Shown here piece by piece: positions 3,044-60,589 of a stretch of DNA of 64,000 bases. How positions within the stretch are numbered: the stretch's first letter is position 1; every line of letters begins with the position of its first letter. This DNA comes from Micractinium sp. NFX-FRZ (Eukaryota; Chlorophyta; Trebouxiophyceae; Chlorellales; Chlorellaceae), in NCBI GenBank assembly GCA_029339195.1, contig JAPTJF010000066.1:1-64000 (forward strand). Reading direction: 5' to 3'. A program made the position numbers and the translations under genes. The notes beneath the pieces were generated by a model. It saw only the letters and a program-made list of their open reading frames with translations. It ran no database searches and was not told the DNA's origin.

Positions 3044-5487
3044 TCACACGCGCAGGATCTGTGTTTTGTTGCCAAAGCAGACGGCCAGCCAGTCGGGCTG
3101 GGCGGAGCTCCACTGCAACTGGTTGATCTGCGCCCCGGCATTGTACGCCAAGATTGGGTCCAGGCTGGCGCCAGCCGGCGCGCCAGCCTGGCCGTCCAGC
3201 CCGCCAGCCTGGCCACCCAGCGTGCCCAGCATGCCCAAGTCCCAGATGAGCGCCTGGCAGTCGTCGCCAGCCGAGCAGAGGTGCGCCGAGCTGTGGGGAG
3301 CCCAGCAGATGGCGTTCACGCTTGCCTGCAGCGGTTGTTGGGGAGGGCAGGAGGAGGGGAGCGGTCACCCTGGCGGCAGCACAGTTGGGGGGAGGCCATC
3401 GTGGCCGCAGTGCATTGGGGGGAAGCGCGATGCGCAGTGCTTTAAGAAAGTGCCCAGCGCCAGGCCAAGGCACGCTCTTCTGGGCTGCACAGGTGAGCCC
3501 AAGAGCAGGTGAGCAGGTGAGCAGCCCAAGAGCGGGTGAGCAGCCAGCAGCCCAAGAGAGGGGTGGTGCAGTCTGCCCGTCAGCCGGCATGACCCCCCCA
3601 GCCAGCCCACCTGGTGCTGCTGCACCTCCGCTGCCAGCTGGCATGACTGGGGAACCAGCACAACGACACACTGAGCACACCACCAACCAAGGGGTAGAGC
3701 AGACCAGCCAGCCAGCCCGAAAGCCGGCCAGCCAGCCACCAGTGCGCCCGCCCACCTGGTGCCGCTGCAGCTCCGCCACGGGCATGGTTGGGTAGCGGAT
3801 GTCGAGCACCATGACGCGGGAGGAGTCCATGGCCAGGGCTGCAGAGTGAGGATAGAATGGGTGGTGTTCATGGTGCTGATGTGAATGCTTTGTTGGTGAT
3901 GTTGTTGTTGGTGGTGGGTGGGTGGGTGGGTGGGGGGCTGGCGGATATTGAGCACCTTGACGCGGGAGTCTACGGCCAGGGCTGCACGTAGGAAGTCAAG
4001 AGTGTGTTGCGTATGTGAGAACTTTTGGTGGTGAAGGGCGGGGCGGGGCAGGGAGGTGGCAGCAGAGGCCCAAAGGATCTGCCGCTTCAGAGGCGTCCCT
4101 GGCTCGTGCTGCGGCAAGGGGGCAGTGGGGCAGGTGCGTTGCTTGGCACTAGTGGGCGAAAGTGGGCTCATGAGGAGCACAAGTGCAGCGACACAAGATT
4201 CCAGCCAGGAATGAGGAGGGCCAGACTGTTGGGAGCAGGCAGACGACCTACGGGGGCTCGAGGCAACACCCCTGGGCGTCGCAGCTTGCCCATGCTGTGC
4301 ATGAACAATGCCAGCTGCATGGCACCGCAGCAGCGGGCACTTCGTTTCTGTGCCGCCCACAGTCCCGCAGGCATTGGAGTACTGCATCCACAGCAGTACA
4401 GATTTCCACAGCAGTACAGCACACCCTGTACCTGCGATGTACCGCGGGTCCTGCTTGTTCCAGGAGAGGCGCAGCAGCGGGGTGTCGGGCTGCGGGCACT
4501 CGTAGATGATCGTGCTGTGCTCCTTGTCGCTGCACCGGGAAGCAAGCACATGGGAGTGCGTTGGAGTTTTGATAACACGTATTACTACTCTCAGAATACA
4601 GTAGCAGAGGGCGCTCTGAATTGACGTGCCAAACGCAGCCAGGGCAGCATGCAGGTCGAGCAATCACACAACCGCTGGCTGGTCAAATGCCAAAGGCACA
4701 ACCCCTGCATGCTCCTGTTGGGCACAGCGCCAAACTCACTCACCGCAGGTCAAATACGCGCACCGACCCGTCGGCAGACACAGAGGCAAAGATGCCGACG
4801 CCGCCCCACGCGATGTCGTACACCTGCACACACGAAGGGGAGGCGCGCCAGGGAGGGAGGAGGGAAGGAAGGAGTGGTCAGCGGTGCGGGCGGGCAGGCG
4901 GGCTCCTGACCCTTGCTCCTCACACCCACATCCTTGCTTAAAGCACTCTGCAGACAGGCACACATACTCGTGGGCGGGGTGGCTGGTGGGCGCTACGTAG
5001 GGTGCTGTGTGCACCCCGCCCACATCCCCAGCTGGTGCCAGTGGTGTTGACATCAGCCCAACCTTAACTCTACCCCCAACAAACCCTAACCATCACCTTC
5101 ATTCCTGACCCCAGCCTGAAAACCACTGAACCCTACCCATCACCCCCAATCCCGCCCCACCTCTTTGTCGTGTGCAATCAGCTGGGTGTCCACCAGCCCC
5201 CGCTCCACATCCCAGATCGTGCATGTCGTGTCGATGGAAGAGGTGCCCACGCGGCGCGGGTCCAGCTCGTTCCAGTCAAACGAGGTGAGCGGGGCTGAGA
5301 ACTCGCCGCCCTTGTTCTGCCCGAGGGAAGGAGGGGAAGGGGTGGGGTTGGGACCAGAGGAAGGAGGGTAGGCGGTTTGCAGAAAGAGCAGGTGAGGCGG
5401 GCAGGAAGGCGCCATGAGTAAAGCCACGCTGCGCTCCCGTTGCTGAGCGGCTCCTCCAGCCGCGCGCCCTGGTGCCTCCTCAGAACA

Positions 5488-5520
<33 letters not shown>

Positions 5521-7351
5521 TGTCTCCAAGCAACCGCATGAAAGCGCCCTACTCCCAGGCACTTTTTGAGCAGCTCCTCCAGCCGCATGCCCTGCTGTAT
5601 CCTCGGCACGCACACACGCACACACCACACCACACACACCCCTGCAAACACTTGACACACCACATCACCAAAAAAGAAAAAAAAGAAAAACACCCACGCA
5701 CGTTGCTCAGCAGCTTCTCCAGCCGCACGCCCTGCTGCGCCCCCGGCTCATCTGAGATCCTCCACAGCCGCAGAAAGTCGCCGGTCGTGGCCAGCAGGTC
5801 GGGGCGGGTGCCATCCTGAGGAGCCAGGCAAGGAAAGGCAGGCAGGCGGGCGGGTGGGCACGGTATGTGGGCACAGAAAGAGAGGCAATGTGGGATGAGC
5901 AGGTCGGGGCGAATGCCGTCCTGGGGAGGCAGGCAAGGAGAGGCAGGCAGGCGGGCGGGTGGGCACGGTATGTGGGCACAGAAAGAGAGGCAATGTGAGG
6001 TGGGCAGGTTGGGGCGGGTGCCGTCCTGAGGGGCCGGCAAAGGTGAGCAGGCGGGCGTGCACAGGGTACAATACTGGCACAGAAAGAGAGGCAATGTGAT
6101 GGCCAGCGGGTCGGGGCGGGTGTTGTCCTGGGGGGCGGCCAAGGTGGGCAGGCGGGCAAGTGGGCACAGGGTACAATACTGGCACAGACAGAGAGGTCGT
6201 TAACCACCGACGGAAGCTAGCAAGGCGTGGCCGTTGCATCGTTGTCCTTACAGGGGCAGATGTCATGGCGGCCAAACAGGGGATCTGACGGCACACATGC
6301 GGCCTCTGTTGGCAAACAGGACCTCCTCCCTGCCACTCCCAGCCCTTGCACCCCCTCACCTTGTCGGGAATGAAGGCCACTTTTGTGGGCGGGTAGGGGT
6401 GCTGGAACGCGAGGTTCGGGTTGCTTTGCACCACGCCGCGCTGCTCATCCACTGCAGGCAAGACGGTACAGCCAGGGGAGGGGGCAGGAAGGGGAGGGGC
6501 AGACCAGTGAGAGGCAAGGGGCGGTGGCTGCGCAGCAGGCGTAGCACGCGCCTGGGAGCACAGTGCACACCAGTACAATCGGCGACACCTGCTCTGCAAT
6601 GTGCAGCACTGGTGGGTGCACCCACTGTTGGCTCAGCCTTGAGCTAATGCTGCACTCCACACTGCCTGCCCCACACATCTGCGATCGTGCGCACAAGGTT
6701 CGGCCCACCCTCCTGCACCACGATCTGCAACCTGTGGTGATACCCCTCTATGACTCGGGCCCGCAGCTTCGTGCTGGCTGCACCCGCCCCGTCAATTCTC
6801 AAAGGGCCTCTGCCGTGCAACCACCACCCCCAGTGCGCCTTGCAACCTTGAAACTTGTATCGTACAATGCTCTGCCCCCCTCCCCAATGCTCACGCTGCA
6901 GGATTTCCACCCGGTTGTTGTAGTCCTCTATGAACGAGCCCACAGCCAGGCGGAAGGGCCGGTCGGGGCGCACCTGCAGAGGGGCACCGGGGTGGTGATG
7001 ATGTGGTGCTGTGCTTGCACAGCAGGTGGGCACGGAGACAGCGGCAGCAAGTGCACGCCACAGGCGGAAGAGGTGGGGGGCGCGGCAGCAAGGCGTGCGG
7101 CGGGGGCGCAGCAGCAGAGCGCCCCTTAAGCGGAAGGGCAGCACTTGGGGCTGCGACCGGCAGACTACCCAGCAAACCAATTCGCTGCTGTGGCTGCGGC
7201 TGCGGCAGCTGCTGGTCGTGCTGGTGCTCTGCTGGGCTGCCCCTGTGTGTTGCTGGCAGCGGCTGCCACTCACGCTCCAGGCGCAGCTGTAGACCAGGCT
7301 GGCGCTCTCATAAGTGTAAATCTCCGCCCGTCCCTCCCCTGGCTGCTGCAT
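3044..7351 (-). CDS. DCAF7: DCAF7/WDR68 (LWD1/TTG1)-type WD40 protein
   Basis: Nine exons: 7351-7274, 6973-6895, 6451-6360, 5815-5702, 5316-5161, 4823-4744, 4529-4432, 3838-3756, 3325-3044. They join in phase to 353 aa, close to the roughly 340-350 aa of the family. Diagnostic blocks are [88 protein letters not shown] and a C-terminal ILRV. The family forms a seven-blade WD40 scaffold: DCAF7 serves CUL4-DDB1 and DYRK/HIPK kinases in animals, while LWD1/TTG1 act in clock and MYB-bHLH complexes in plants. An algal single copy most likely reflects the ancestral scaffold; I cannot tell LWD from TTG1. Introns around exons 4 and 8 hold repeated junction fragments. Confidence 0.95.
3912..3990 (-). 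repeat. Degenerate copy of the start of DCAF7 exon 8, abutting a GGGT microsatellite
   Basis: On the minus strand an acceptor CAG is followed by an exon-8-like stretch reading [15 protein letters not shown] (true exon 8: [15 protein letters not shown]). It then runs into a CCCA tetranucleotide repeat with no usable donor consensus. Confidence 0.8.
5435..5745 (-). repeat. Three copies of the 3' end of DCAF7 exon 4 (one true, two in the intron)
   Basis: The true exon end reads [11 protein letters not shown] and stops at 5702. Related segments lie near 5558-5610 ([11 protein letters not shown]) and 5438-5485 ([11 protein letters not shown]). Between the copies are intronic CA/GT-rich stretches, including a (CA)n run at 5489-5519. 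Confidence 0.85.
5795..6205 (-). repeat. Four tandem copies of the intron 3 / exon 4 junction, period about 105 bp
   Basis: The core GGGGCGGGTGCCxTCCTG starts at 5801, 5906, 6011 and 6113 (spacing 105, 105, 102). Each copy carries an acceptor-like AG followed by a codon run for DGTRPDLL or a variant, plus intron sequence with a shared AGAGAGGCAATGTG block. Only the copy at 5815 continues into the full exon. Confidence 0.92.
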
Positions 7352-13935: not shown

Positions 13936-13980
<45 letters not shown>

Positions 13981-15102: not shown

Positions 15103-15275
15103 CTAGATGAGGCGGAAGCTGCCCATGACGCCGCGGCACAGCGGGCACAGCGGCGCGGTGGCATGCCGCGCCGCGCACTCCTCAGCGCTCAGGTGCAGCG
15201 CACATTCCATGCACAGGACGTGGCCGCAGGGCGAAGCTGCAACCTCCAGGAAAGAGTCCAAGCACACCGGGCAGC
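15103..15275 (-). pseudogene. Orphan copy of the RING-finger terminal exon
   Basis: This 173-nt segment matches the last exon of the ankyrin-RING gene (18080-17908) base for base in length, with roughly ten substitutions. It keeps an open frame, the same acceptor AG, the same stop and all eight zinc ligands (CPVC, CGH, CMEC, CPLC). About 80 nt of the flanking intron is also copied (to about 15357). There are no ankyrin exons between it and the true terminal exon, and the opposite strand carries a separate gene. It is either a dead duplicate or an alternative last exon of the gene ending at 17908, because its splice phase is identical. Confidence 0.8.
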
Positions 15276-15970
15276 CTGCACGTTGAGGGGAGAGGCAGTG
15301 GGAAGGCGGCAGGCACATCGCGGGCGAGAGGCTGCTCGTGTGCGTAGCAGGATGGCGACCTGGCGTTGATGCCCTGGCACCAACAAAGGGAGCATGTGGC
15401 TACTTTTATCTGTTGTGGTCACGATAACTGTTGCCGTCACGCTTCTGCTGAGCTGGCGGCTTTGGACTCATCGACCTTCCTCACTTGCACGCTCCGGATG
15501 GCGCTGCAGGTGAAGGCGACGCAGAGTGGGCAACGTGGCGGCACGCACGGTGGACGCGAAGAGCGGCGGCGCCGTGCGGCGGAAGACACAGCGTCAGCAG
15601 CAGGGCTGCGGAAGCGCACTTTATTGAGCAAGGGCAGCAGCAACAGAGCGACAGGGGCGCACGGCGGCGTCGGCTGGCTCATACCCCTGACGACACAGAG
15701 GGCGACGACAGCGGCGGCAGCTACGGCACTTCTGGTGGCAGCTCTCAGTACTCTCAGGCAGGGCAGCAGCACCGGACGGGTGTCGGCTGAATCCTTTCCG
15801 GGGGGATTGATTTCGTTTTATTGATTGGCTGCTCTTTCACTTTTCGGCCGGGCCGGTTGCCACTCCCTCCTCGCCCCCGTGGCGGCCAGTCACGCATTTC
15901 TGCGTTCCTCTTCTTCTTTCTCCTTCTTGGTCGTTCAAGAAAGGGGCTGGCATTTGCCTGCAGCCACACC
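15276..15970. other. Intergenic, upstream of the small unknown gene
   Basis: The first 80 nt are the copied intron flank of the RING exon. The rest has GCG/CAG-rich low complexity and no supported gene; it should include the promoter of the + strand gene starting at 15971. Confidence 0.4.
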
Positions 15971-17020: not shown

Positions 17021-17058
17021 GTCGCACGGCTTAGGCCACGGCTTACGAGGGGTGATGT

Positions 17059-17063
17059 TGTAA
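17059..17063 (+). terminator. Candidate TGTAA poly(A) signal
   Basis: TGTAA 39 nt after the stop of the preceding gene; assigned by position and the known algal signal. Confidence 0.4.
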
Positions 17064-17907: not shown

Positions 17908-20900
17908 CTAGATCAGGCGGAAGCTGCCCATGACGCCGCGGCACAGCGGGCACAGCGGCGCGGTGGCATGCCGTGCCGCGCACTCCTCAACGCTCAGGTG
18001 CAGTGCACATTCCAGGCACAGGCCGTGGCCGCAGGGAGAAGCTGCAACCTCTAGGAAAGAGTCCAGGCACACCGGGCAGCCTGCACGTGGAGGGGAGAGG
18101 CAGCGGGATGCACCGAAGGTGGCGCATCGCGGGTGAGAGGCTGCTCGTGTGCGTAGCAGGGTTGCGAGGCAGGCAGGCACTGTAAGGTGTTGCACAGTCG
18201 GATGCGCCAGTGCTCAGCAGCAGCAGCAGCAGCAGCATGTGCGGCCAGTGGCAGCAGTACGGCTGCAGCACCAGTCATTGGATGCAGTCGCAGCAGTACA
18301 GCCGCAGCACCAGCGAGTCGTTGGACGCAGTGCAGATGAGCAGGAGCAGCAGGAAACGCAGCAGGAACAACACACGGCACAAGGTTAAGGCAGCAAGGGT
18401 AGCAGCGCGGCAGGGCGCACCTGCCACGGAAGTGACCGAGGTGGCGGTGGGGCAGCCAACAACACTGCCTGCTGCATCTCTCTTGGCTGCGGCATCGCCG
18501 GGAGGGCAGCAGGCACCCGCCAGCGGAGAGCCCGGGGCGGCGGCGGGGGCACCAGGGGCGGCAGCGTGGAGGAGGGACGCATATGCGGTGCCGCCCCGCC
18601 AGCTGCCCGACAGGCTGCCCCGGCGGCCAGCGCCAGGGGCGGGGGCAAAGGCGGGCAGGTTGCCAGCCAAATTGCTGTCGCTGGCTGTCCGCCTGTGAAG
18701 CCCGCCGCCGGCGCCTGTGGCCCCCATGCTGCCCCGGCGGCTGCTCATGCCCAGACCGCCTGGGGCGGCGCTCATGCCGCCCACGCCGCTAACGCGGGAG
18801 CTGCCAACGCAGCCGCTGCTTATGCGGGCCAGAACCGCCGCCGACAGGCCGCGCACCGCGGCATAGCCCGTGCCTCCGTGCGCCGACCCTTCCCGCGATG
18901 AAGCCCTGCTGAAGCTGCGGCGCCCGTGCCTGCTGCCCTCCTCCCCACCACCCGCAGCGCCGCTGTTATGTGCTTCTTGCGCCGCCTCTGCCAGCTGCCC
19001 CAGCTGCTGCACCAGCCGCCCACGCAGCGTGGCAGCCGCCAGGGCTGCCAGCGACGGCACTTGGCACTGCACCATCGGCTGCTGCAGCAGTGCCGCCAGC
19101 GGCACGCGCGGGTTGAGCGCCCACAGCAGCGAGTGGTGGCGCATGGACGCGGCGACGTCGTAGGGCCGCTGCCCTGCAAGCCACAAGCAGCAACAGCCGA
19201 AAGCAGCGCGGTTTGAGTTCTTCAGTCTGTGCTGTGGTCAAGAGCAGTCTACACGGCGATGAACAGGGCAGATGCACAGCGGTGAGGGCTGTGCTGGTGC
19301 GCGGGCGCCACCCCGCCCTGCTCACTCCATGCCCGCTGCCGCTGATCCGAGCCCTTCAAATCCCTCCAACCCTGCCTGCCCCCCAGCCCTCCCACCCCTG
19401 AAGTCTTGCAGCAACCGTATGTCCACAGCCCGCGGCTCCGTGCGCTGCCGCTCCGCCGCCGCCTGCAGGATGGCCTGCACCACGCGCCCCTTGCCCCCCG
19501 CGGCTGCATAGTGCAGGGGCGTGGAGAGGGGCGTCCAGTGCTCGCGAGTGCCCATGCCAAAGCTTGTGTTGCACCGCACTGCGTGGGGAAGAGCGGGGGG
19601 GAGGGGGGCGGAGTGTGGTGGAAGGGCAGGGGGATGAAATGGGAGCACAGCTGGAACCAAATGTTGGGCAGGCAAGCTGCGCAGGCAGAGCAAGACGAGC
19701 GCAGCGTATCCTGGCTTAACCACTGGCTGGCAGGCACGGCAGCACAGGCAGGCAGCCGTCCTGGCATGCCCCCTCAGCAGCAGCGCCACACGGGCGGGTG
19801 TTACCTGTCAGCGAGGCTCCCCACTTCAGCAAGGCCTTGACCGCTGCCAGGTGTCCGTGGCTGGCCGCCAGGTGCTGCATGGCACGGGCATATAGCAGGA
19901 GCGGGAGTGGGGTGGGATGCACAAGCCGCTGCATGGCAAGCAGGGTTGGTGGCACGGCATGGCATGACATCGGCACGGCACGACGTGGCGTGGCACGACA
20001 CAGGCCATGGCACAGCGTGGCACAGCGTGGCACAGCGTGGCACAGCGGTGCGCGGCCTCACCAGCGGAGCCAGGCCAAAGCCCTCCCTCCCATCAATGTA
20101 GCTGCAGGGAGGGCGGGGGGGCGTGTGCGGTGCAGCAGGGAAGTCAGCGGGAAGCCACACGCATGCAGGAGGGCCTGGGGAGCCACCCGTTCCACCCATC
20201 CACCCACCCAACCACCCATGTCGCCCCGCCCGCCCGCCCACCCAACCCACCGGTGGTGCCCCTGGGAGTCGGGTAAAAGCACCTCCCTCTGGGGCAGCCC
20301 CTGACCACCCGCTTCATGCAACTCCCGCCCCGCCCACCCGCCCACCCGCCCAACCCACCGGTGGTGGCCCTGGGAGTCGGGAATGAGCGCCTCCCTGAGC
20401 GGCTGCCGCTGCCCATCCGCGCCATGCACCACCGCAGACTCATCCTCCAGCAGCGCCTCCACAGCCTCGGCCCAGCCGTGCAGCGCTGCAAGCGGCAGAA
20501 GAAGAAGATCGCAGCCCAAAGGCGTGGGATTGAGGGAGCCGACAGGAAATTGAGCGAAAGGCACCAGTCAGCAACCCGTACACTGCAAGCGGCACCACCA
20601 GTGTTATCAGGGGCGGGGTGAGGACGATAGTTGACGAGGTGGGTGCTGGCCGACAGACCCGACTGTGCAGCTACTCCCCCGCAGCCGTGCAGCACTGCTT
20701 GTGCGGTGGTAGGCGGTAGGGTGGCAAGCCACAGCCTGGGGCTGGCTGAGAGCTAGCTGGTGGCTGCTTTCCTCTAGCACGTGCGCACAGCGCCTCATTC
20801 TCGACCTCTGGCATCCCCCCGCCTGCCCTGCTTCCTACCCACCCGCCCGCCCGCCCTGCCCTGCCCCACCCGCATAGTGCAAGCAGGTGCGCTGCTGCAG

Positions 20901-24663: not shown

Positions 24664-27600
24664 ATGGAGCAGACTACGGGCGCGCACGTGCTGGTCAAGA
24701 ACCTGATCGCGCAGGGTGTGAGGCGCGTGTTCTTGCTGCCCGGCGCCAAGATAGACCGCGTCATCGAGGTGCTGCGTAACACAGGTGAGTGCTTGCCTGC
24801 ACGCACCGCTGCTCCCCGAGGGAGCAGGCAGCGCCGCCGCCCTCGCCCGCCGCCGCGTGCACACAGCCCAAGGGGCGCAGGTGCGTGCATACGGGGCTAG
24901 CCTGCCCCGATTCAACGTTGCGTTAGCTACTGGGAAATCACACGAAAAAAATGGGTGAAGACAGGCCAATGCTGGTGTGCACGATGGGCTGAGTGAAAGC
25001 GTCCCAAAACACCCGCCCAACCGCTTCCTGCCATCCTCCTCTGCCCTGCCTTCCTCCCCTCCTTCTCTGTACGGTGCTGATGACCAGCAGATGAGATTGA
25101 AATTGTGCTCTGCCGCAACGAGCAGTCAGCGGCATTCATGGCCGCAGGTGCGAGCCTGACCAATGGCGGAGCAGGCAGCAGGCAGCAGGGCAGCTGTGTG
25201 AGCAGAGAGGCGTTGTTGCATTGGCAGCGGCATGGAACCGCGTGCATGGCAGCACCGGCACGCACCCAGCCTGGAGTGCTGCTGTACCAACCAGCCTGTC
25301 CCACAGCTGCTCAGCCTGCGCCTTGCCGCTCGGCCCTGCCTGCAGGCCACGGGCGGCGCACCGGACGGGCGGGCGTGGTGCTGGTGACGTCGGGTGAGCG
25401 GGTGGGCTGCGCACTTGCGCTGCCTGAGGGCCAGTACGGCGTGGCGGGTGGAGAATGTCCCCTGGTCTGCAGCCCCGCCATCAGCCAGCCGCGCTGGCCT
25501 CCCATAGGTTATCCGGACAGGTTACATCCAACCGCACGCCCTGCTCCCTCCTGCCTGCCTGGCCTTCACCCCTCAACCTTGCACACTCACTGTGCCCCAC
25601 CCCTCCTCCACCCTCTTTGCCCACCCCTTCCCCCACACACCCCTCCTTTCAGGCCCTCCCAACCCCATAGTGTGCTGGCCGACCCTCTGTTTCATGCCAC
25701 AACATACACATTTCTCGGCATTCGCCCTGCAGGCCCCGGCGTCACCAACCTCACACCGCCTTGGCCACATGTGGCGTCGAATTTCCCACACGTCCGGCTC
25801 ACCACCCCCTGCCTCCCCTGCTTCCCTCCCTGTGCAGGCCCCGGCGTCACCAATCTCACCACCGCCCTTGCCACCGCCAACTGCGAGGGTGACCCAGTGG
25901 TGGCGCTGGGGGGCGCCGTCTCCACCTGCCAGCGCTACAAAGCCACACACCAGGTGAGGAGCAGGGCTGCTGCTGTGTCGTGCTGTGTCGTGTTGTGTCA
26001 CGCTGTGTTGTGCTGTGTTGTGCTGTGTTGTGCTGGGTGTGAGCGCCGGCACGTGGGGAGACTATTTTCCCCCATCCATGGGTGCCTGGCATGCCGTCTC
26101 CACCTGCCAGCGCTACAAGGCCACGCACGAGGCGAGGCACAAGGGGCTGCTGCTGTGCCGTGTAGCGTGCGAGCTCTGCTGCCCACAAGCTTGGCCTTGC
26201 ATTGGCTGCCTGCCACCCCTCCTCCCACCACCCTCCTCCCTGCCCCTGCTCTTTCCTTCATGTGCCCAAAGCCTCAACAACTGCGACGCCTTGGGAGCCC
26301 TGCATTCCCCTGTCCCACCCGCCTCCTCCCCGCCTTCATCCCGTCCCCGCAGGGCCTCAACAACTGCGACGTCATGCGCCCCGTCACCAAGTTCAGCGCG
26401 GAAATCCCCCACCCCGACGCCATCTCAGAGGTGCTCACAAACGCCTTTCGAGCGGCAGGTAAGAAAGCATTGCGTGAGTTGAGGGTTGGGGAGAGGGAAG
26501 GGGGTGCGGTGGAGGGGCAGGCTGGGATGGGCATTCAGCAGTGCTCATTGTCGCAGGGCGGCAGGCAGGGGGCTGGGTAATGTGTCTAGGATGGGCGGCG
26601 GGCATGCTGTGGCCTATTAGGCGCTCCGCATGAGGTGGGCAAGGCGTGGTTTGGCTTTGGTTCCCAACCCCTGCCTGCTGTCCCGCCCTGCGCCACCCTG
26701 CTTACCTGCCTGCTGCACCCCACATCGACCCGCCCTGCACCCGCAGAGTCCATCGGCCGCCCTGGCGCTGCATTCGTGTCGCTGCCGCAGGTTGGGGGGG
26801 GGGGGGGGGGCAGGGGGACAGGGCAGCCTGAGCAAGCATCCCAGATGCGCCTGCGGGGCGGCGTGCTCACGGCACAGGATGGGCAGCGTTTTTGTATATA
26901 TATGTATGAGGATGTTCTACCTGCCATCTAACTTCAGATGCACCAAACAGGGCACATGCTGTTGCAGCCGAATATCTACATTCTTGCCAATAACCCGCCC
27001 ATGTTCCTCTGTTCACCCCCCTTTAATCACCCCGCAGGACATCATGGTGGGACCCGCCCTCATGCGCGTCCTGGGGCACTCGCTGCACCTGGGGGGCGGC
27101 CACGAGGACGACGTCGCCAAGGTGGGTGCGGCGCCAGGGGAGTGGGGTTGTTGCGCCAGGGGAGTGGGGTTGATGCCCCAGGGTAGCGGGGTTGTTGTGC
27201 CATGGGCGCTGGGTTGAAGGGCGGGGCAACCTGTGGCTTCTTAGCCCACACCCAAGAGCGTGCTCATTCAACTCGCCGCGCCCATTTACACACGCTCAGC
27301 CAGGCATGCATCCGCTTGCCCCCTCCCCTCCCATCCTCTCCCCTCCCCCCTCCCCTCGTGCGCTGCCCAGGCCGCCGACCTGATCAACGCCGCCGCCTGC
27401 CCGGTGCTGCTCTCCGGCATGTTTGCCAGCTCACCCGACGCCGCCGCCGAGCTGCAGAAACTGCTGCACTGCTGCGCAATGCCTGTGGTGACCACATTCC
27501 AGGTGGGTTGGCGGGCGGGTGGGAGGGACGGTGGGGGAGGGTGGGGGTGGTGTCAGAGGGATGCAGAGTAACAGGGAGCCATGTTCATTGAAAACAGGGA

Positions 27601-37300: not shown

Positions 37301-39420
37301 ATGCCGCACGCGCCGTGCCGCATCCCAGCAGCACACAGCACAGCAGGCATGGCACAGCAGGCATGGCGTGGCACAGCTGGCGCACCTGCAGTATGCCGCG
37401 TGAGTCGTGCCGCATCTCGGCGGCCCGGAACAGCATGCAGCCGCCCCACACAAACTCGGTTCGCTCCTGCGGGCATCTAGGATAGAGGGGCAGAAGAGGG
37501 GTGTGAAGACATGGGGCAGAGGCCAGGGGGCCAGGCATGCAGGTCAGGTGTGGTGTGGCCTTGAAAGCGGCACCGCCGGCCAACAGTGCTGGCTGGCGCT
37601 GGCATGTAGGCACCGAGCAAGAGCATGCTGCGCATGCTGTGAACGCGGGTGCAACTCAGCCTGGCTTGCCTTGACTGAGAAAGGGACGATGAGGGGGAGG
37701 TGGTAGGAGAGGGCGCAGTAGGAGAGGAGGTCGGCGTCCTCGGCAGGCACGTCAAAAGGGTAGCCTGCAGAGAGCAACAAAAGAAAGGCAGGGAACAACA
37801 CCATGCAACTTTGAGGAGAGGGCATGGCACCAGAGCACCTTTCCGTGTTTGTGCAGGAGGGGCACAGGGTGCTGCCTCGCAGGGGATTGCCAGTTCTGCT
37901 GAAATGGCGTGCCGCACGTGGCGTGTGCAGCGCAGCATCCCCCCCCACCTCTGGCCTTTGCACAGCCGGCTGTCCGCCTCCACGCCCCTGCCCGTACAAG
38001 AGCCCCCACCCTGGCGTGGCTGCGGCCGCATACATATAGCATAAGTAAAGCTCCCTGCCCTCATTCACACACCTGTGGCCATGAAGAGCGAGCTGTCTGC
38101 CTCCATGTCCCGCACCAGTGACGCCAGCAGCCCCGTGTGCAGCAGTACATCGTCGTCCAGGCACAGGATGTACTGCGCCTCCCCGCCCGCCTGCCGTATC
38201 CCCGCCAGCAGGCTGCAGGGTGGGCAGTCAGGACGGGACGGGGCAGCCAGAAGGCGTGTCATCGGCAGAGGCTGGGCCGGTGGGGGCACCCTCCCTGCCC
38301 GCCAGCAGGCTGCGGGTGTGCGCAACCCGTTCGGAAAGGGACAGAAAAGAAGGTGCGCAAGCTGCGTCATCATGACGTGGCAGGCCCCGGGTCACAACCG
38401 AAAGAAGGAAACCTTGGGAGACGTGGCTGCAGGGTGCTGGACCACAGTGCTTTGTGCGCACGCACCCACAAAGGCATGGCCCAACGGGTCGGCCCCCCTC
38501 CTCATCCTCACTTGTGGATTTTCTGGCTGGTGCGCTCAGCGGTGCCGGCAGAGTAGATGCGGGCGGTGAGCCCCCCACGGGGCGCCTGTGCCGCCACCTC
38601 CCGAATGAGGGAGCTAATTGCTGCATAGGCTGGGTCCGCCTTATCCTCTAGAACAAACAGAAACTCCAGGCCTCCGCCTGCATTGTGGGGTCAGGCATGG
38701 AGCAGGTGGGTGGTGTGGGTGCTTGGCGGCGGTTGACATGGCATGGCAACCCAGGAGCTGAGCTGGCTGACTCACGGAAATGTAAGACATTCCAATTGGG
38801 TTGTTGTATGGTCTTCACCTGCACCGCCTGGGACAGGGCGGATGGCAGCACATGCACACTCACCTGCCCCCCGAGCACCCTCACATACACCCCTCGCCCA
38901 CCTCCCAGCGGCGGGCACCCACCGTAGTCAAGGTTGAGCATGGACCGCCAGTTGGCCATGCTGTGGCTGCGGCACCCCCGCACCGGCAGCACCACTGTTA
39001 CCGGCGGCAGCCCCGGCTGGCCGGCCTGCAGAGGTGCAAGTGAGGGGTGGAGGGTTGGTGCAGGAGACCGGGCAAGTGAAGAGGCACGAATGGCGGCGGC
39101 GGCGGCGGGTGGAGGCAGTTCACCCGCAGGCCGTCCCTCACCTCCTGCTCCGCTGCTAGCGATGCCAGGCTGCCTTTGCTGCTGTTGGACTTGCTTTTCG
39201 GCCCGGCAGGGCGCCCCAGCGAGCGGCGCCGCTGGCGCTGCAGCTCGCGGCTCCGCGCCTTGCCCGCCAGCACCCAGAGCGTGGCCAGCAGCACCACCAG
39301 GTAGATGCCATGGAATTGGAGGGCCGTCACCCACGGGCTGCACAGCAGAGCGTTGCCCTGTTCAATGCGGGCGCTCAGCCAAGCCACTGCGTTGCTCAGC
39401 AGCACCGGAGGGGGCAGCAT
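34312..39420 (-). CDS. GCS: Ceramide glucosyltransferase (glucosylceramide synthase, GT21), plant type
   Basis: Thirteen exons: 39420-39142, 39025-38923, 38677-38512, 38212-38073, 37764-37670, 37466-37386, 36832-36729, 36263-36103, 35677-35563, 35434-35346, 35265-35215, 34896-34789, 34427-34312; 535 aa. It transfers glucose from UDP-glucose to ceramide at the ER/Golgi. An N-terminal hydrophobic anchor (about residues 32-55) is followed by the GT21 signature residues: LPPVTVVLPVRG, the D1 region (EDKADPAY), D2 CLDDDV, WGGCMLF, D3 DGGYSDDLT and an RRWWNYLRRQ in place of QxxRW. C-terminal helices end with the plant-like DWSGIRYSRKRGKI. Intron 5 uses a GC donor. The exon 10/11 junction is the weak spot: phase requires T|GTGTGA at 35345 and an acceptor at 35266, while a better GTGAGT two bases on would break the frame. 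The exon 10 acceptor may be 12 nt upstream. Confidence 0.9.
34450..34505 (-). repeat. Decoy copy of the GCS exon 13 start
   Basis: CATTGCCCACGCCTTTCTGA followed by CCAGCC mirrors CATTGCCTACACGTTTTTGA and CCAGCC of the true last exon, about 90 nt upstream in transcription. Confidence 0.8.
36310..36392 (-). repeat. Decoy copy of the GCS exon 8 start
   Basis: AG|GCTAGACGGCTCCTACCC then a frame reading LDGSYPVRRWWNYLRHQL duplicates the true exon 8 (LDGSYPLRRWWNYLRRQL) about 125 nt upstream in transcription; it then diverges. Confidence 0.9.
36895..37120 (-). repeat. Two decoy copies of the GCS exon 7 start
   Basis: The true exon 7 begins CAG|GCCTGGTCAGATGGGGG. Copies near 36969 (GCCTGGTCGGACGGCGG) and 37110 (GCCTGGTAGCAAGGCGG, with a stop codon) precede it in transcription, together with shared intron sequence (GCAGAGCACACTACCACAT). 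Confidence 0.9.
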
Positions 39421-43777: not shown

Positions 43778-46700
43778 ATGTCGACGGCAGCTGCGGCGGC
43801 CATCCGCCCCATCAAGGCGGTGGTTCGCGGGCAGAAGATGATGTGAGTGAGCAGGGTGGGGTGGGGTGCCGTCCTGGCCTGTCCAGCCAGCTCCTGCCGC
43901 CTGCTGTGCTGGGTGGTGGGGTGCCAATTGGTGCAGTTGGCTCATCTTCTGTTGGCATTCTCGAATCCCGCGCCCCAAGTGATGTGATATTCTTCTCGTT
44001 CTGCTGGCTGGCTGCGTGGCAGCTGAGGCGTGTGGACAACGGAGCAGCAGGGCCCTTGGGGGTCCTTCAGGCCGCGGTGGTTGAGCGCCGGTGAGCGAGC
44101 CTCCACTCTCCCACATGGCTCCCTTCATGCCTGCAGGGAGGGCGCGGGCGTGCGCATCTGCCGCACACTGGGCACAGGCGCGCTCAAGAACCTGGACCCT
44201 TTCCTCATGCTGGTGAGCCGGCGGGCAATCCTTGACCAGTCAGAATGGCATCCTCACGAGTATAGCCTTCCCAGAGGGCAGGCAGGGGGGCACGGCATGC
44301 GTTGATGACCTGATGCGACAGCACCTTGGAATGAAGGCCCCAATGGTGATCGGCCTTGCCCGCTCTCAGCCGAGGATGCCGGCAGACCAGCCTAGCGCCG
44401 GCTGTTGTGGCATTCTGTTTCACAAGCAACATATCCCTCCGACCCTCCCTGGCCTTTATTGCAGGACGAGCTGAGGATGCCGCAGACCAGTCGAGTGCTG
44501 GCTGTTACGGCACCTTTGCTTCAAAAGCAAATGCCTCCCCCGCCTCTTCTGCAGGATGAGCTGAAGATGCCCCCAGATGAGGCCAGCACCGACTCTTTGC
44601 TTTCTTTACATGCTCGCAATCTCTCTGGCCTTCCCCATCTGTTCCCCCTCTTGCAGGACGAGCTGAAGATGCCGGCAGACGAGGCCAGCGCCGGCTTCCC
44701 CGACCACCCCCACCGCGGCTTTGAGACCTGCAGCATCATGCTGAGGTGGGGACAACCACAGCGGGCAGCTGGTACCGCCTGCCACACACACAAAGCGTAC
44801 TGCCCGCCACCCATACCTTCCGCAGTGAACTGCCGCGTACGCTGCTGACCCTTCTGTTGGGAGCCTATCGGGATTGTGTATTATGTATCTGCTGTTGCTC
44901 CTTGCATGACCCTGCCGCTCTGGCATGCCTTGTGCAGCGTCAATATGGCCACGCAGGCGCAGCGGGGAGGCTTGCATGCCCCTGTGCCTGCTCGGCTTCT
45001 GCACCTTTGCTCACTGCCTGCTTGCTGTGGCTCGGTGCCCTGCAGCGTTGTGCGGCAAGATGGTTCACGTGCACTGACTGTGCTGACTGCCTGCTTGCCG
45101 TGATTGTTGGTGCCTTGCAGCGGCAAGATGGACCATGCTGACTCAATGGGCAACAAGGGCACCATCGGACCTGGTGAGGACGGCACCCGACCCGCCTGCT
45201 GGGCTGTCTCGACTGCCAGGCTGGCTGCCTGGTATGCTCTGGCTGGGCCAGTGCTGCTCAGGGAGTCTGGAGGAACTGCTTGGCTGCCTGGGTGGCGGGG
45301 GCAGCGACGTGTCAGCCACGGCAAGCACGAATCAGCCTTGCCCCAGGCGCCCCTGCCGCTACGACTCTATGTGCGAGCAGAGCTGCGGCCCCTTCCCTCC
45401 ACCCCTCGCGCATCCCACCGCCCCGCCACCCCTGCCCCTCCTCCCCTCCTCCTGCTTGTGCTTGTGCCCTCCCCCGCCCCCTGCAGGCGGCGTGCAGTGG
45501 ATGACGGCAGGGCGGGGCATCGTTCACAGTGAGATGCCGGTGGTGACGTCGGGCGAGCTGCACGGCTTCCAGCTGTGGATCAACCTGCCAGCAAAGGTGG
45601 GTGGGGTTGCTTTGTTGGTGCTATGTAAGGGTGGGTTTGAGTGGGCAGGGGACTAGCTGCACAGCTGCTGGCACCAGCTGTGGGTTCAACCTTGCAAGCA
45701 AGGTGGGTGGGGCTGAGGCAAGCGGGCTGGCCAGGCCGGCAGCTGAGCTTGCTTGCCCTTGCGGCACTTGTTCATTGGCAAGACCCCAATCAGCCTTCCA
45801 ATCCGCCGATGTTTTAGCAAATCATACCCCATCCCGCCGTGGTCAGAGAGTACCAAGCGCCTCGCTGCCGCTGCCATGTTGAACTGTGTGTGCTCAGCTT
45901 GCCTCCATCAAAGCAGACCTTGTGTCAGCCCGTCGTCAACATGCCCCTCCTTCCTCCGCTCTGCAGGACAAGATGTGCAAGCCCCGCTACCAGGACTACC
46001 AGAGCAGCGACATCCCAGTGGCTGAGCAGGACGGCGCCTCAGGTGTGCACGCTGTGCCTGCCTGCTGCGCCTGTCATGCCTGCTGCGCCTGATGTGCTGA
46101 CACAGCGGCGCAGGCGGTGGCTGACCAGACGGCGCCGCAAGTGTGCACTGCCTGCTGTGCGACTGTACATGCTATGCCTGCTGCCTGCGGTGCGTCAACA
46201 CCCCAGAGCTTCTTCCCCTGCTCGCAGTGCGCGTGATGGCGGGCAGCTGGGGCGGCGTGGATGGCCCCATCAAGCTGCGCAACCCCGGCATGCTCATGGA
46301 TGTGCGCCTGGCACCAGGAGCCAGCTTCTCGCAGGTGTGTGGTTTGGTGGGCAAGCCCGTTTATTGGTCGTTGGTGGCGGTTGAGCAGGGGAGGGCATGC
46401 TGCTGGGCGTGTGCTGGGCGTGCACTTGCCACGCAGGACGTGCCGCTTCCTTGGCTGCTCACATTGGGACCCGGACCCCGCCCTCCTCCCCCCCCCGCTC
46501 ACGCCCTCCACCTGCGCCCCCCTGTCCCACCTGTGCCCGCTGCAGCACGTGCCCGAGGCCTGGAACGGGTTTGCGTATGTGTACGAGGGCAAGGGGCGCA
46601 TCGGAGACAAGTCGGTGCAGGAGCAGCACGCATACGTGTTCCACAACGAAGGCGATACGGTGAGGAGGGCGCCCGGTCCTCATTTATCTCCCTTGCCCTG

Positions 46701-55258: not shown

Positions 55259-58200
55259 TCAGTCTGTGGTGTAGGCCGCGCACAGCTCCCAGTAGTGGCC
55301 CACCCCACGGTCCCCTAGCAGCTTCCGGGCAGCTGCCTCGGAGTGCACTGTCTCTGACCGGAACTTCTTGAACTGCGGCTCCTTCACCACGCCCTGCACA
55401 CACACATAAAGGGTAGCAGAGGAAGGACCACCGATCGATGACACACAAACGGGTAGCAGTGAAAGGACCAACTGTCAGGATTTAGGACTTAGAACTTCTG
55501 CAGCCGGAACCCCTGTTGTGCTAAGGCTGTCAATCCACACCGTACAGCCACACGAGCGAGCAAGGCATGTAGCAGCTGCGCAGCAGCCAGGCGAGCAGGC
55601 TCCCCCGCTCAATGCCCCACCGGCTTCACTGCCCTCGTTCCAGCCCAGCACTGCTCACGACAGCCACCTGTCAGATGACGTGACAATGCCGCGCCCCTTT
55701 CCCACCCCAACCCACCTGCACCACATTAAAGTAGACCACCCCCTGTATCCCTTTCATGTCAAACCAGCAATGCCTTCTGCTCAAGCCAAGCCTCACCTGC
55801 CAGACCAGGTGGCAGTAGTTGGGCCTGCGGGGCTCTTTCCCCGCCTCCTCCTCCTCCTCCTCCTCGTCCCGCCCCGCATTCCAATCGATGCGCCGCAGCA
55901 TCAGCTTCTCGTACCTGCACGTACAAACCGCATGAGAAGAAGTAAGAAGCCGACATGCACATGGGGCGCGCTCACAGCGCTCCAGCGGTGCGCCGCAGCA
56001 TCCGCTTCTTGCCCTGCATCCAGTAAAGCACATCGACCCCTCCCTCGCAGCGCCCTGCGGCCGCACCTGCGCAGCGCCTTGGCCGTCCCTCAGCCACGAC
56101 GAGTGAGACAGCACCAGCAAGCCACCGCCCACCCCGTGCTTTCCATTCAATAAAAATAAACTCTCAGCTTGGCAGCAACATGCCTGCCCCCTGCCACCGC
56201 ACCTGCGCAGCGTCTTGGCTGTCCCCTCCACCACCACGAGCGAAAAGGCGCCTGTGAGCCACCGCCCACCCAGCCCTAGTTTGGGACACGCACCGCCCTC
56301 CCTGGCCCCCTGCTCCTTCCTCACCTGCGCAGCGTCTTGGCTGTGCCCTCCACCACCACGAGGGAGAAGGCGCCCTCCCCGCCGCCCGCCAGCAGGAGGG
56401 AGCACCCCGTCATGTGGTTCTCCCGCGCGTTCACGTCCACCTTGAAGCGCAGCTGGCCGTCTGACAGGTCCCCCAGCTGCGGCAGAGGTGGCCACATTTC
56501 AGAGGTTAGCAGGAGTTGATGCAACATGCAAAAGGTGCAGGGAGCGGGGCAGCGGGCCCCGTAGCAAAGAGCAGCCCAGCCATCCCAGCCCAGCTCAGCA
56601 CACCTTGCAGATCCACGCATGCAGAGCACCACAGCGAGCACAGCGCAGCGCACCACAGCGCAGCACAGCGGCAGCGCACCTTGTAGAGCGCCACATGCGT
56701 CTCCACCCCCTCATCTCCAACCAGCTTCCTCAGCTTCTTGTCCCTGCACACAAACAAATGCAAGAGGCAAACCGATTTAAAGGCAGGAGGAAGCAGGACG
56801 GAGCTTCCTCAGCTGCCTGTCTGGAGGGCAGGCGGGGGCATACAAGTGGAGGGGCAGTGGAGGCCGGCAGGTGGACGGGCGGGCACGGCGAGGTGGTGGC
56901 AGCAAGGAGCAACCAGAGGGTGAAGGTGCCTGGCACGATGCGTCTGCCAGCATGGCGGGCAGCAAGCACAGATGCAGGGCAAGCACCCCAAGCAGCAGCA
57001 GCAACGGCGGCCTGCTGCTGCAGCAAACCGCAGAGGCACCAACCAGAGACAAGTGCATGCGTGCCCGCGCATCTCGCTTTCACAGGCAGCATAGCGCGGC
57101 AGCCGAGCAAGCACAGGCTGGTGCACGCACTTGCGCTCCGAGGGCGTCAGCATGCGCGCCAGGTTGCGGTCCTCGTGCGCTGCGGCACGCTCCGCCATCT
57201 GCTTGCGCACCTCCGCCTCCACGGCGGTGGGGTCTGCAGGAGGGCAACAGTGATGGAAAGTGTTTGGAGGGAAGGTGGCAAGTTTGCACGGCACACATTG
57301 GGAGGGGGCTGGGGGGATGGGCACGCAGGGCCGGCAGGGGCGGGAGGGGTGAACCCTGCCAGCGCCAGGCGCATACGCGTCACAGGTGCTGTAGCGTGCA
57401 GGCTGCAGCGGGTTTGCTCCTCTAGTTTGCCCCACACCCCACCCTGCCGAGCAAAAACTATGTTCTAGCCACATACCGCCGCCTCTGCCCCCAGCACCCG
57501 CATCAGGTTTGCTCCTCTCTGCCCTGGGTCCCCACCCACACCAGCCTCCTTTCTGCCTTCTTCCCTCCCTGCCCACCTGCCGTCGCCTCTGCCCCCAGCA
57601 CCCGCATCAGGTTGCTGATTTTGACCTTGGGCGCCGCCGGCTCCAGCAGGCCCTGCCGGATCAGCTCCTGCTTCTCCTTCTCACGCGCCACGCGCCGCTG
57701 CGTGCGCAGCTTTTTCAGCTCCTGTAGCAAGAACAGGTGCACTTAATGTGAAGCCTCCGGTTACGTATGGAGCAAAGCATGCAGCTTCAACGGCAGGCAG
57801 TTGCACTGATGAAGCACGCAGCTTGAGCGGCAGAGACACAGTGCACTCGGCACGCGCCGCAGCTGGCACCCTTCCCCCCTCCCGCACCTCCACCTCTGTT
57901 ATCACTTCGTTCTGTGCTGCCCAGCCCACCCCAGCCCACGCACCCGCTTGGTGAGCTTCAGCGGCTGCGGGGGCGGCGGCGGCGCCTCTGCTGGCGGCTC
58001 AATCAGCACGGGGTGCTCCACTAAGTCAGTGATGCGGTCCTCCCGCAGCTGCAGAGGATATACAGAAGAGGGCATGGTGACATCAGGGAGATGAGCGGCT
58101 CAATCAGCACGGGGTGCTCCACCATGTCCATCACGAGGTCCCCCCGCAGCTGCGCGTGGCAAGGGGAGAAGGCGGGAACACACCAGGGAGCAGAGATGGG

Positions 58201-60589
58201 CTGTGCGGCTCAGTCAGCACTGGGTGCTCCGGATGCCCTGCGACGGGATGCAGTCGCCACGTCCCCAAACCCGCCGCAAAGCCGTGCCTACCACCTGCCT
58301 CTTAGACCACCCCTCTGACCTGTGGCCCATCACGTTTCCATACCTGCGTCATCACGCCTTTGCCCCTCACCTGCCTCCCGCCCCACCCAGCTGCCTCCCG
58401 GCCCACCCAGCCGCACCCCACCCCCCTTACCTTTGCAGGCTCCCCATCAGTTACGTTGCCATACCTGTCTTCATCTGCCTTCCCACCCAGCTGGCCCCCC
58501 TCACCAGCTGCCCTCCAGCCCACCCAGCTGCCCTCCCACCCCCCACCTGTGCAGGCTCCCCATCAATCACGTTGCCGTAGCTGCTGCGGTCTGCCAGGAT
58601 GCGTGCGTCCCACCACTCCACGTCTGGGATGGGCTCCTCGGGCGCCGCCTCTGGCTGCGCCTCCACCTGCGGGGCGGGGTGCCCAGGTATAGAGGAGGAG
58701 GAGGAGGAGGAGGGAGTTCGTAATGCATGTGTTGTGTGTGAAAGACAAGGGGTGGCCTCCTCGAGTGCCGCCGCCGCCCCTACCTGCGCCGGCACCTGCT
58801 GGCGTGCCAGGCGTGGGAATCGAGTTGGGCAAAGGCAGATGGGGAGGGCTGCCCAGAGTGTGTGCCAGGCACGCGATGGGTGGATTGGCCTCCTCAGTGC
58901 CTGCCCAGCTCCCGGCCCTCACTCTCCCAAACATGCGCCCCGCATGCACACCTCTCCAACTCCCCCGCCTCCACCCCGCCTCCCTCCCACCTCCCACCCA
59001 CCCACCCGCGTGCCCAGCGGTATCAGGTTGGCGTCCTGGCCCGTCGCCGCTATTGCTGCCTCCTTCCGCCGCCGCTCCGCCAGCTGCCGTGCCCCCTCAT
59101 CCCCAAATTTGGCCTGCAGGGCAGCAGCAGTGGGGCAAGAGCGTGCTGAAAAGGCCAAGAAATTGTATGGTGATGTAATGACCCTTGCCACACATGCAAA
59201 ACGTACCCCACCCACCTCTGATTCTTTCCCACGCAGCCTCCGGACTTCAGCCCCTTCACCTCCTCCTTCACTCCCTCAATCATGTGAATAGGCATTGCAA
59301 GCGCCCCGCCCCACCCAGAGCCAAAGCACCCACCCGCAGCCGCCCCATCTCCGCCTGCTTCTGCAGCTTGCCCTCCTCCACAAACTGGAAGGAGGCGCGC
59401 GGGCGGCGCTCCAAGCGCCGCAGCCCCCGGGTGCCCAGGCTGGGATCAAAGAACCTGCAGGGGGAGCAGCAGCGCAATTTTTGAAAAAATGGGGGCAGCG
59501 GCGGCGGCAGGGTGCTGCTACAGCATGGATGGGAGCAGCAAGGGGCAGGCGCAGGTGCACAGCAGGTGCTCATGTTGCTTTGCAGCACAGCGGGGTGACC
59601 GGCGGTGGCAGCTGCGGCAGCAGTAAAACTATCAATGCACTGCTGGGCGCTACGGCGGCTACGGAAGGGACACCCCAGGTGGGACGTACCCCCTTCATTG
59701 CAACCCCGCAAGCACACACATGGCACTCCAGTCAACCACAGCTTGCCATCCGCACTGTGCCCGCTTTCCATCCACGTCCGCCCCATACGCCTCCACACAC
59801 CACCTCTACGCACAGCTACCACACCCCGCCAAGCACACTCACTTGGCTGCGTCTTCCTCTGCCTTCCTCTGCTGCTCCTCCAGCTGCTGCTGCAACGACG
59901 GCCCCGGCGCCGGCTCGGGCTGCCGCACAATTGGCTTGCCAGTCAGTGGGTCAATCTCTCGTCCCTGGTCGTCCAAAATGAGCGGCGGGGGCATCTTTGT
60001 GACTGGCTTGGGTGCTGCAGCGGGTGCTGCGCCCGCGGCAGCCGGCGCACTGGGTACAGCAGCAGCAGCGGAGATGCCCTTTGCGATCAACAATGCTGGC
60101 ATCACGCCTGCTGCCGCCGCTGCTGGCGGCACGCCGGCCGCAATGGCCGCCGCCACCGACGCGGCTGTGGGTGCTCCGGGCGGCCGTGCCGCTGCGGCTG
60201 CAGCGCCGCGGTTGCCAAGCTGCAGCAGAACCAGGGGGGCCAGGAGGCATGCTTGAGAGGGAACCGACACAAGACCAGCTGCCCTCGCCACCGCCGGCGC
60301 CCGCCTGCCGGCTGCCGCCAATGGCCCAGCCAGCACGCATCCCGCTTCCGCGCACCGTGATGCCCGCCTTCTTCAGTTTTTCCGCAAGCTCCTTCTGCTT
60401 CTGCAGCGCCAGCTTGGCCTTCTGCAGCTTCTCCAGATCGATGCCGAGCTTCTTGGGAGCTCCTGCTGCAGGCGCTGCTCCGGGTGCTGCTGCTGGTGCC
60501 GGAGCGCTGCCGCCATTGTTGAGCTCCACCTTGGGCCGCTTAGCAGCCCCCTCCTCCCCGTCCTCTGCCTTCCGCTTGCCCGCCTCCAT
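55259..60589 (-). CDS. PRP3: U4/U6 snRNP protein PRP3
   Basis: Twelve exons: 60589-60356, 60219-59843, 59454-59334, 59113-59006, 58666-58547, 58048-57944, 57721-57577, 57233-57131, 56743-56680, 56476-56325, 55914-55797, 55393-55259; in phase, 593 aa. PRP3 clamps the U4/U6 duplex in the tri-snRNP. The N-terminus ([16 protein letters not shown]) is a nuclear-signal-like region followed by an Ala/Pro-rich stretch and [16 protein letters not shown]. The PRP3 core carries [37 protein letters not shown] and [12 protein letters not shown]. The C-terminal DUF1115 domain has [27 protein letters not shown] and a final [10 protein letters not shown]. There is no N-terminal PWI domain, unlike human PRPF3 (683 aa). 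Introns next to exons 5, 6, 7 and 10 contain repeated junction fragments. Confidence 0.94.
56055..56250 (-). repeat. Two copies of the PRP3 exon 10 end and donor
   Basis: The true exon end GTGGTGGAGGGCACAGCCAA...CTGCGCAG|GTGAGG (56325) is followed in transcription by two intronic copies. The one near 56200-56250 still reads [17 protein letters not shown] and ends CTGCGCAG|GTGCGG; the one near 56065-56110 is more degenerate. Confidence 0.92.
57474..57512 (-). repeat. Copy of the PRP3 exon 7 end
   Basis: CCTGATGCGGGTGCTGGGGG then CAGAGGCGGCGG repeats the true exon 7 end (CAGAGGCGACGGCAG|GTGGGC), about 110 nt later in transcription, without an intact donor. Confidence 0.88.
58085..58260 (-). 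repeat. Two decoy copies of the PRP3 exon 6 start
   Basis: The true exon 6 starts CAG|CTGCGGGAGGACCGCATC at 58048. Copies at about 58092-58153 and 58205-58262 repeat the stretch encoding [18 protein letters not shown] to varying degree. Confidence 0.88.
58312..58478 (-). repeat. Two copies of the PRP3 exon 5 end
   Basis: True exon end TACGGCAACGTGATTGATGG...CACAG|GTGGGG at 58547. The copy at 58430-58475 reads [11 protein letters not shown] and has an intact GTAAGG donor; the one near 58315-58350 is shorter. Confidence 0.88.

Follow-up and report, generated by a model that had tools for sequence, protein, structure and literature searches.

Introns of the alga Micractinium sp. NFX-FRZ (Chlorophyta, Trebouxiophyceae) carry copies of the exon edges that they adjoin. 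In the window—a stretch of 64,000 nucleotides (nt) comprising bases 1-64000 of contig JAPTJF010000066.1, assembly GCA_029339195.1—and in one 10-kb stretch from each of 25 other contigs, a short block made of an exon edge and its splice site recurs inside the neighbouring intron. Roughly a tenth of the sampled introns have such junction echoes, a level above that reached by simulated chance duplication. Where do these copies come from? They are direct, adjacent and edge-specific; the reading frame runs through the outer junction; the copies decay neutrally; introns with a single echo are longer by one spacing; and spacing is inherited within arrays. We give about an even chance to the reading that duplications across splice junctions lengthen introns, and that the copies subsequently decay.

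Exon edges recur in their own introns

All statistics derive from these 314 kb of a 66-Mb assembly in 838 contigs (GC content of the window, 63-67% in 4-kb steps). Gene models were predicted, from sequence only, by a hidden Markov model (HMM) gene finder self-trained on the same 314 kb, whose donors approximate CAG/GTGNG and whose acceptors approximate TGCAG/G (slash, splice junction). The finder took parts of echoes for exons. By rule, 14 predicted mini-exons copying an adjacent exon were assigned to the intron, and two more were dropped by hand, for the window proteins only. After this removal the models held 587 introns with a median length of 245 nt and exons with a median length of 113 nt; 566 introns had both flanking exons.

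The tail or head of each flanking exon, up to 100 nt and exon letters only, was aligned to its own intron, and scores of at least 16 were retained. Because detection requires a match in the exon part, echoes with fewer than about 16 exon nt are invisible, a limit that our simulations share. Exon edges matched their own adjoining intron at 69 junctions (37 donors and 32 acceptors) in 60 of the 566 introns, compared with means of 0.2 donors and 0.0 acceptors over five mismatched exon-intron pairings, and, where introns two apart were paired, with 0 and 1 among 485. This bears out the original prediction, made by eye of a model on the window's letters, that junction blocks recur in the adjacent introns. 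A repeat scan of the window returned 67 ungapped direct segments with offsets of 20-300, 47 of them complex, and 0 segments on one order-2 and one order-4 Markov sequence; over the 314 kb, 298 segments reached a score of 18, and block-wise Markov controls yielded none.

Within the window, 22 junctions (11 donors and 11 acceptors) in 19 of 114 introns have echoes, in keeping with the two dozen or so that had been anticipated, at donors and acceptors alike. Echoes are not limited to the window, because 40 of 433 introns in the 24 other loci carry them; at least one was found in 18 of the 26 sequences and none in the remaining 8. One locus, L028, contains a coding tandem repeat (L028:5740-7100; offsets 42, 63, 105 and other multiples of 3) in a repetitive protein. 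It is inside the counts of 69 junctions, 60 introns and 566 introns, and was excluded from the codon-position, nearest-copy, other-loci and orientation and edge-specificity counts.

Anatomy of a junction echo

Copies are direct at 36 donors and 32 acceptors and inverted at 0 donors and 1 acceptor (threshold 16); copying in both orientations was rejected, inverted copies being not above background. They are also specific to the edge: among 289 exons of at least 100 nt, 28 tails match the downstream intron and 0 the upstream one, the figures for heads are 19 upstream and 0 downstream, and exon middles (exons of at least 150 nt) match flanking introns in 0 and 1 of 140 cases. The exon part, with a median of 40 nt and more than 55 nt in 8 of 68 cases, ends at most 3 nt from the junction in 57 of 69, as expected from the claim that the repeated unit nearly always includes the junction itself. 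Selection against longer copies being recognised as exons could account for the limit of about 55 nt. In the middle half of cases, whole blocks are 43-65 nt long, and their median identity is about 0.86.

The nearest copy lies a median of 110 nt away (middle half, 96-126), so that the 100-140 nt originally proposed gave the right order of distance but was slightly too long; at 3 of 65 junctions it lies closer than 73 nt (30, 47 and 53). One, two and three copies occur at 43, 14 and 8 of 65 junctions, respectively, the range that had been noticed in the window. Where copies form arrays, the second spacing is correlated with the first (Spearman 0.79, n=20, excluding the arrays L009 and L012 with their very short spacings). 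Both ends of the same intron bear echoes in 9 of 566 introns, against about 2 expected under independence (37 x 32 / 566), an excess to which longer introns may contribute.

The sequence between the copies behaves less uniformly. Similarity, about 0.9 up to the junction, drops to about 0.47 over the next ten nt (control, 0.34-0.35), intron-side block ends cluster at the splice site, and the lengths of the exon and intron parts show no trade-off (correlation -0.07). The spacer is repeated in 17 of 63 nearest pairs, and 46 of 63 show no similarity to the sequence after the echo at z 2. Counted by event, the intron part is repeated in 29 of 68 by a second score and in 35 of 68 by either of two criteria; when 31 of the other 33 were re-tested against the whole rest of the intron, 4 reached p 0.05. 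Repeated spacers have a divergence of 0.185, compared with 0.213 expected for neutral duplication of the full unit, in a subset biased toward similar spacers. Since 17 of 63 pairs fit a neutral full unit and the rest show no detectable spacer homology though their blocks are no more diverged, either two kinds of echo share a geometry, or there is a single kind in which some unseen process replaces the spacer.

Decay of the copies and choice of the junction

Exon and echo differ by about 13%. Differences amount to 0.11-0.12, 0.12 and 0.16 at the three codon positions and gaps of 1 nt are common; because divergence is nearly equal over codon positions and single-base gaps are frequent, the echo is non-coding. 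Echo offsets are evenly spread modulo 3 (25/23/21). Among coding exon-exon repeats, in contrast, the offset is divisible by 3 in 43 of 45, of which 31 come from two protein-repeat arrays; in-frame coding repeats and spread echo offsets therefore fit a filter that purges exonic duplications.

Might the copies serve as decoy splice sites, as the original prediction had considered? GT is retained in 19 of 28 echoes and AG in 20 of 25, where 0.76 is expected from the identity of neighbouring positions. Because the dinucleotides are lost at the neutral rate, selection for decoys leaves no sign, and functional decoys are not supported, the splice dinucleotide being no better conserved than its surroundings. 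Donor echoes without a repeated spacer are more similar to their own real site than the consensus explains (22 sites); acceptor echoes without a repeated spacer (20 sites) resemble their own acceptor no more than other acceptors. Alternative, duplicated or mini-exons were rejected, given the non-coding type of divergence and the frequency of a partner splice site at the opposite end, which did not exceed the random level (6 of 31, random 0.20; 3 of 32, random 0.26).

With echoes omitted, the spliced products of seven window genes contain no internal stop in the predicted models, the WD40 model being cut at its start. A Pfam scan of five of these seven products returned WD40, TPP enzyme, glycosyltransferase 2/21 (weakly), pirin and PRP3. 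An alignment of the acetolactate synthase to catabolic homologues of solved structure spans every echo-bearing junction except 31062 and has no insertion at any of them. The alignment of pirin to its homologues passes through the echo junction, with a 3-residue gap a few residues into the exon, and the WD40 protein gave partial repeat matches only. Because the echo-free models are open and these homologues align, the in-frame copy is the one furthest from the intron centre.

Duplication as a proposed route of intron lengthening

Echo-bearing introns have a median length of 392 nt vs 233.5 nt for the others. Subtracting one spacing from single-echo introns leaves a median of 238 nt (n=33) vs 225.5 nt in echo-free introns (n=428, p=0.59). 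There-and-back copying of the block alone was rejected, since subtracting only the exon part leaves single-echo introns too long (p=0.0004), with the caveat that an echo has more room to show in a longer intron. Of the two outcomes of tandem duplication that had been proposed from the window, intron growth has some support, from the direct adjacent copies, the correlated spacings and the length comparison, but intron gain has none: the echoes lie inside one existing intron, and classical duplication-born introns were rejected on geometry, 0 of 69 offsets equalling the intron length.

In the sequence of events that we propose, a short direct duplication of about 80-160 nt would arise across a splice junction. 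The outermost exon-intron junction would stay in use, as the sole choice preserving the protein, and the second copy, in which roughly 40 nt of exon edge are joined to the splice site and a little spacer, would remain in the intron and lengthen it. This intronic copy would then decay like other non-coding DNA, and repeat events at the same junction would produce arrays of two or three echoes. We infer tandem duplication at every step, whether or not filler DNA comes with it, perhaps at staggered breaks.

Several results weigh against so simple a course. Of 53 anchored events, 38 lose homology no more than 15 nt beyond the junction. Echoes without a repeated spacer are no more diverged in their exon part than the others, and because their exon blocks are no older, the missing spacer is not explained by simple decay. 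Each further copy adds only 52 nt to the intron (slope), less than one unit, which could be caused by loss of other intron sequence; and 6 single-echo introns with a repeated spacer exceed one spacing (length minus spacing, 340). The remaining points emerge from simulations, in which tandem duplications with uniform breakpoints were placed on real echo-free introns and followed through neutral decay next to a constrained exon, using the same detectors, at three indel rates and, with stronger exon constraint, over two age ranges. Simulated junction and pure-intron events stand at 1.05-1.2 to 1, whereas we observed 68 junction events vs 4 pure-intron repeats with offsets of at least 80 in echo-free introns (10 when echo introns are included). 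The simulated exon part has a median of 58-63 nt and exceeds 55 nt in 54-57% of events, longer than the observed one, and the simulated intron part is repeated in 75-82%, compared with the 29 of 68 found here.

The pure-intron counts were obtained from a raw scan of introns and flanks that gave 56 pure-intron segments in 34 introns and 96 exon- or junction-to-intron segments. Many of the former pair one echo with another; without those touching echo blocks, 21 clusters are left, 10 with offsets of at least 80, and 6 of these 10 lie in echo-bearing introns. Pure-intron repeats below 80 nt form 9 clusters in echo-free introns, with offsets of 43-68 (for example L017:5879-6312 and L022:3727-3983), and look like a separate, ordinary class.

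Weighing the explanations

How much of this pattern could plain neutral tandem duplication deliver? Were duplications to strike at random places without any junction preference, exonic ones would be purged and the conserved exon would keep junction copies visible for longer. Geometry does force exon-intron pairs across the junction: a tandem pair split between exon and intron must span it, which is partly why the unit includes the junction. The frame-preserving offsets of exonic repeats and the 17 of 63 nearest pairs that fit full-unit neutral decay point the same way. The excess over pure-intron repeats and the ending of the block at the junction are not geometry, however. The simulations fail on the pure-intron ratio, the length of the exon part and the repeated spacer, and the pure-intron repeats remaining in echo-free introns, at 43-68 nt, seemingly belong to another class. 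With three measures off, geometry and survivorship were rejected as the full explanation, and we regard random neutral duplication as unlikely. As for the mutational mechanism at splice boundaries that the original prediction envisaged, the junction excess stands (68 vs 4 or 10, with about 1.1 to 1 simulated), junction inclusion is in part geometric, and the mechanism is a candidate. One tentative form of it, which we would not yet favour, is a junction-anchored duplication—tied to splicing, transcription or the DNA of the splice site—that would copy about 40 nt of outer exon plus the splice site inward and constitute a main route of intron lengthening here.

The missing spacers invite other accounts. 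In staggered-break repair, a junction segment of about 45-60 nt would be duplicated by fill-in, with about 65 nt of filler between the copies (A C becoming A B A C), B being unrelated to C. This would explain why most spacers (46 of 63) are dissimilar to the post-echo sequence, why blocks measure 43-65 nt in their middle half, why single-echo introns are longer by one unit and not one block, and why copies are direct and adjacent; in mouse cells, tandem duplications have been described where breaks carry 50-bp overhangs (PMC8355091). Yet exon and intron parts show no trade-off, intron-side ends cluster at the splice site, array spacing is inherited, such repair should be common in intron interiors and is not, and no source of the filler was found in the 314-kb sample; we consider it quite unlikely. 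Alternatively, full units might be duplicated and the exon-edge block kept similar, by gene conversion or a nucleotide-level function in splicing, as the spacers drift. A median block identity of about 0.86 next to mostly dissimilar spacers, spacing inherited despite drifted spacers, and the greater number of private differences in far than in near echoes (109 vs 84) speak for maintenance, as does one array (L032:2384-3007) whose blocks are 97-100% identical around a first spacer of 0.86 with 6 gaps. Against it, the detectable spacers, a biased set, sit at about neutral divergence, leaving no continuum of faster spacers, and the splice dinucleotides are unprotected, contrary to a decoy function. 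Gene conversion could keep blocks alike, although the near-neutral spacer divergence in detectable cases disfavours a general role, and maintained echoes appear improbable to us. A mobile element or introner between the copies was rejected, as no dispersed family emerged among 67 between-copy sequences (in 314 kb of 66 Mb): 6 of 67 had matches elsewhere in the 314 kb, mostly short or of low complexity, and mutual matches spanned only 13-34 nt. The evidence does come from one assembly only; still, copies that differ by about 13%, arrays of up to three echoes, confinement to introns adjoining their own exon edge, and exonic repeats that keep the frame, which false duplication would ignore, make an assembly or haplotype artefact most improbable. 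The reading of duplication across junctions, lengthening and decay is the one we retain.

Echoes and neighbouring features of the window

The echoes of the window (Table 1) fall into six genes, with 4 junctions in the WD40 gene, 1 in the ankyrin-RING gene, 8 in the acetolactate synthase, 4 in the glycosyltransferase, 1 in pirin and 4 in PRP3. Seven genes had been named as affected; six of them (DCAF7, ankyrin-RING, acetolactate synthase, GCS, pirin and PRP3) stood and membrane protein B did not, as neither of its candidates, plus-strand genes at 11.3-14.1 or 22.9-24.2 kb, has an echo at threshold 16. The labels DCAF7 and ankyrin-RING stem from that prediction—the family scan identified the first no further than WD40 and omitted the second—and its GCS is taken to be the glycosyltransferase gene. 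At donor 29535, part of the first echo (29661-29687) was called an exon by the HMM and was removed by hand for the protein only.

Table 1. Junction echoes in the window, with the splice junction that each repeats
Echo	Gene	Position	Strand	Remarks
Exon end, donor 3756	WD40 gene	3611..3651	-	37 exon nt, identity 0.86
Exon start, acceptor 3838	WD40 gene	3942..3981	-	43 exon nt, identity 0.88
Exon end, donor 5702; two echoes (5569-5597, 5439-5475)	WD40 gene	5439..5597	-	
Exon start, acceptor 5815; three echoes (5898-5920, 6004-6025, 6100-6122)	WD40 gene	5898..6122	-	spacings 105/105/102, spacers repeated
Exon end, donor 20359	ankyrin-RING gene	20252..20320	-	70 exon nt
Exon start, acceptor 25838	acetolactate synthase	25733..25768	+	
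Exon end, donor 25953	acetolactate synthase	26093..26131	+	GT changed to GC in echo
Exon start, acceptor 26353	acetolactate synthase	26271..26288	+	
Exon end, donor 27502; two echoes (27618-27647, 27735-27775)	acetolactate synthase	27618..27775	+	
Exon start, acceptor 28596	acetolactate synthase	28471..28501	+	
Exon end, donor 29535; two echoes (about 29623-29670, 29782-29837)	acetolactate synthase	29623..29837	+	
Exon end, donor 31062; two echoes (31154-31179, 31256-31294)	acetolactate synthase	31154..31294	+	
Exon start, acceptor 33123; three echoes (33021-33059, 32944-32972, 32825-32864)	acetolactate synthase	32825..33059	+	exon parts 39/39/41 nt
Exon start, acceptor 34427	glycosyltransferase	34462..34497	-	
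Exon start, acceptor 36263	glycosyltransferase	36330..36383	-	54 exon nt, identity 0.93; spacer not repeated
Exon start, acceptor 36832; two echoes (36934-36968, 37075-37110)	glycosyltransferase	36934..37110	-	first spacer repeated, z 10.8
Exon end, donor 37386	glycosyltransferase	37294..37349	-	same intron as acceptor 36832 echoes
Exon start, acceptor 44657; three echoes (44555-44594, 44465-44503, 44368-44403)	pirin	44368..44594	+	40 exon nt each, spacings 102/90/101
Exon end, donor 56325; two echoes (56203-56252, 56067-56108)	PRP3	56067..56252	-	
Exon end, donor 57577	PRP3	57476..57545	-	71 exon nt
Exon start, acceptor 58048	PRP3	58095..58149	-	
Exon end, donor 58547	PRP3	58431..58467	-	same intron as acceptor 58048 echo

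The acetolactate synthase (24664-33573, plus strand) matches catabolic acetolactate synthases (E about 1e-142) more closely than the chloroplast enzymes (about 1e-34), yet 21 exons are predicted in it; it is possibly an old horizontal transfer that gained introns. By eye, there are two copies of the ankyrin-RING gene's C-terminal end, at 15103-15290 and 17908-18090, about 2.8 kb apart, the first copy being predicted as an isolated fragment. Two predicted neighbours on the minus strand, 50667-52407 and 52900-54701, share stretches that look similar by eye around 52.0-52.4 and 54.3-54.7 kb and are likely a tandem gene pair.

Relation to known systems and significance

Intron growth is usually attributed to transposons and unspecific insertions. 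Duplication is better known from the birth of introns: Hellsten et al. 2011 and Gao and Lynch 2009 reportedly showed how a new intron takes both its ends from duplicated AGGT sites. Such duplication-born introns resemble the echoes in that gene segments with splice signals are tandemly duplicated; there, however, the copies form new intron ends, whereas an echo sits within an intron that was already there, whose old junction is still used. Tandem genomic duplication has been reviewed as a route of intron gain (PMC3443670). In the potato RdRp gene, a single tandem duplication across an intron-exon boundary made a new intron, and the same gene has an 83-bp duplication inside its first intron (PMC4974935). 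This shares with our echoes a tandem duplication spanning an intron-exon junction, but is one case with a new intron, compared with dozens in 314 kb, no sign of a new intron and a unit limited to the exon edge. Small tandem duplications at breaks with overhangs, described as common insertions below 100 bp (50-bp overhang in one assay; PMC8355091), are likewise direct, but arise from engineered nicks in mouse cells and without a tie to splice junctions. Introners, which also change introns of eukaryotic genomes on a large scale (PMC9860276), are copies of one element in many genes, unlike the between-copy sequences here, which form no family in our sample. In the open-access literature, judged by titles and opening lines of abstracts, we found no account of exon-edge copies in introns as a genome-wide pattern, a weak negative given that subscription literature lay mostly outside its scope.

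For gene finders, the echoes are a warning, as they may be called exons. A decaying exon-edge copy is a countable footprint of single steps, through which the rate, size and position of intron growth become measurable. Similarly, one can test how splicing tolerates strong duplicates of its sites at a distance of about 100 nt. If junction-anchored duplication holds true, splice sites in this alga would be mutational hotspots that make their own decoys.

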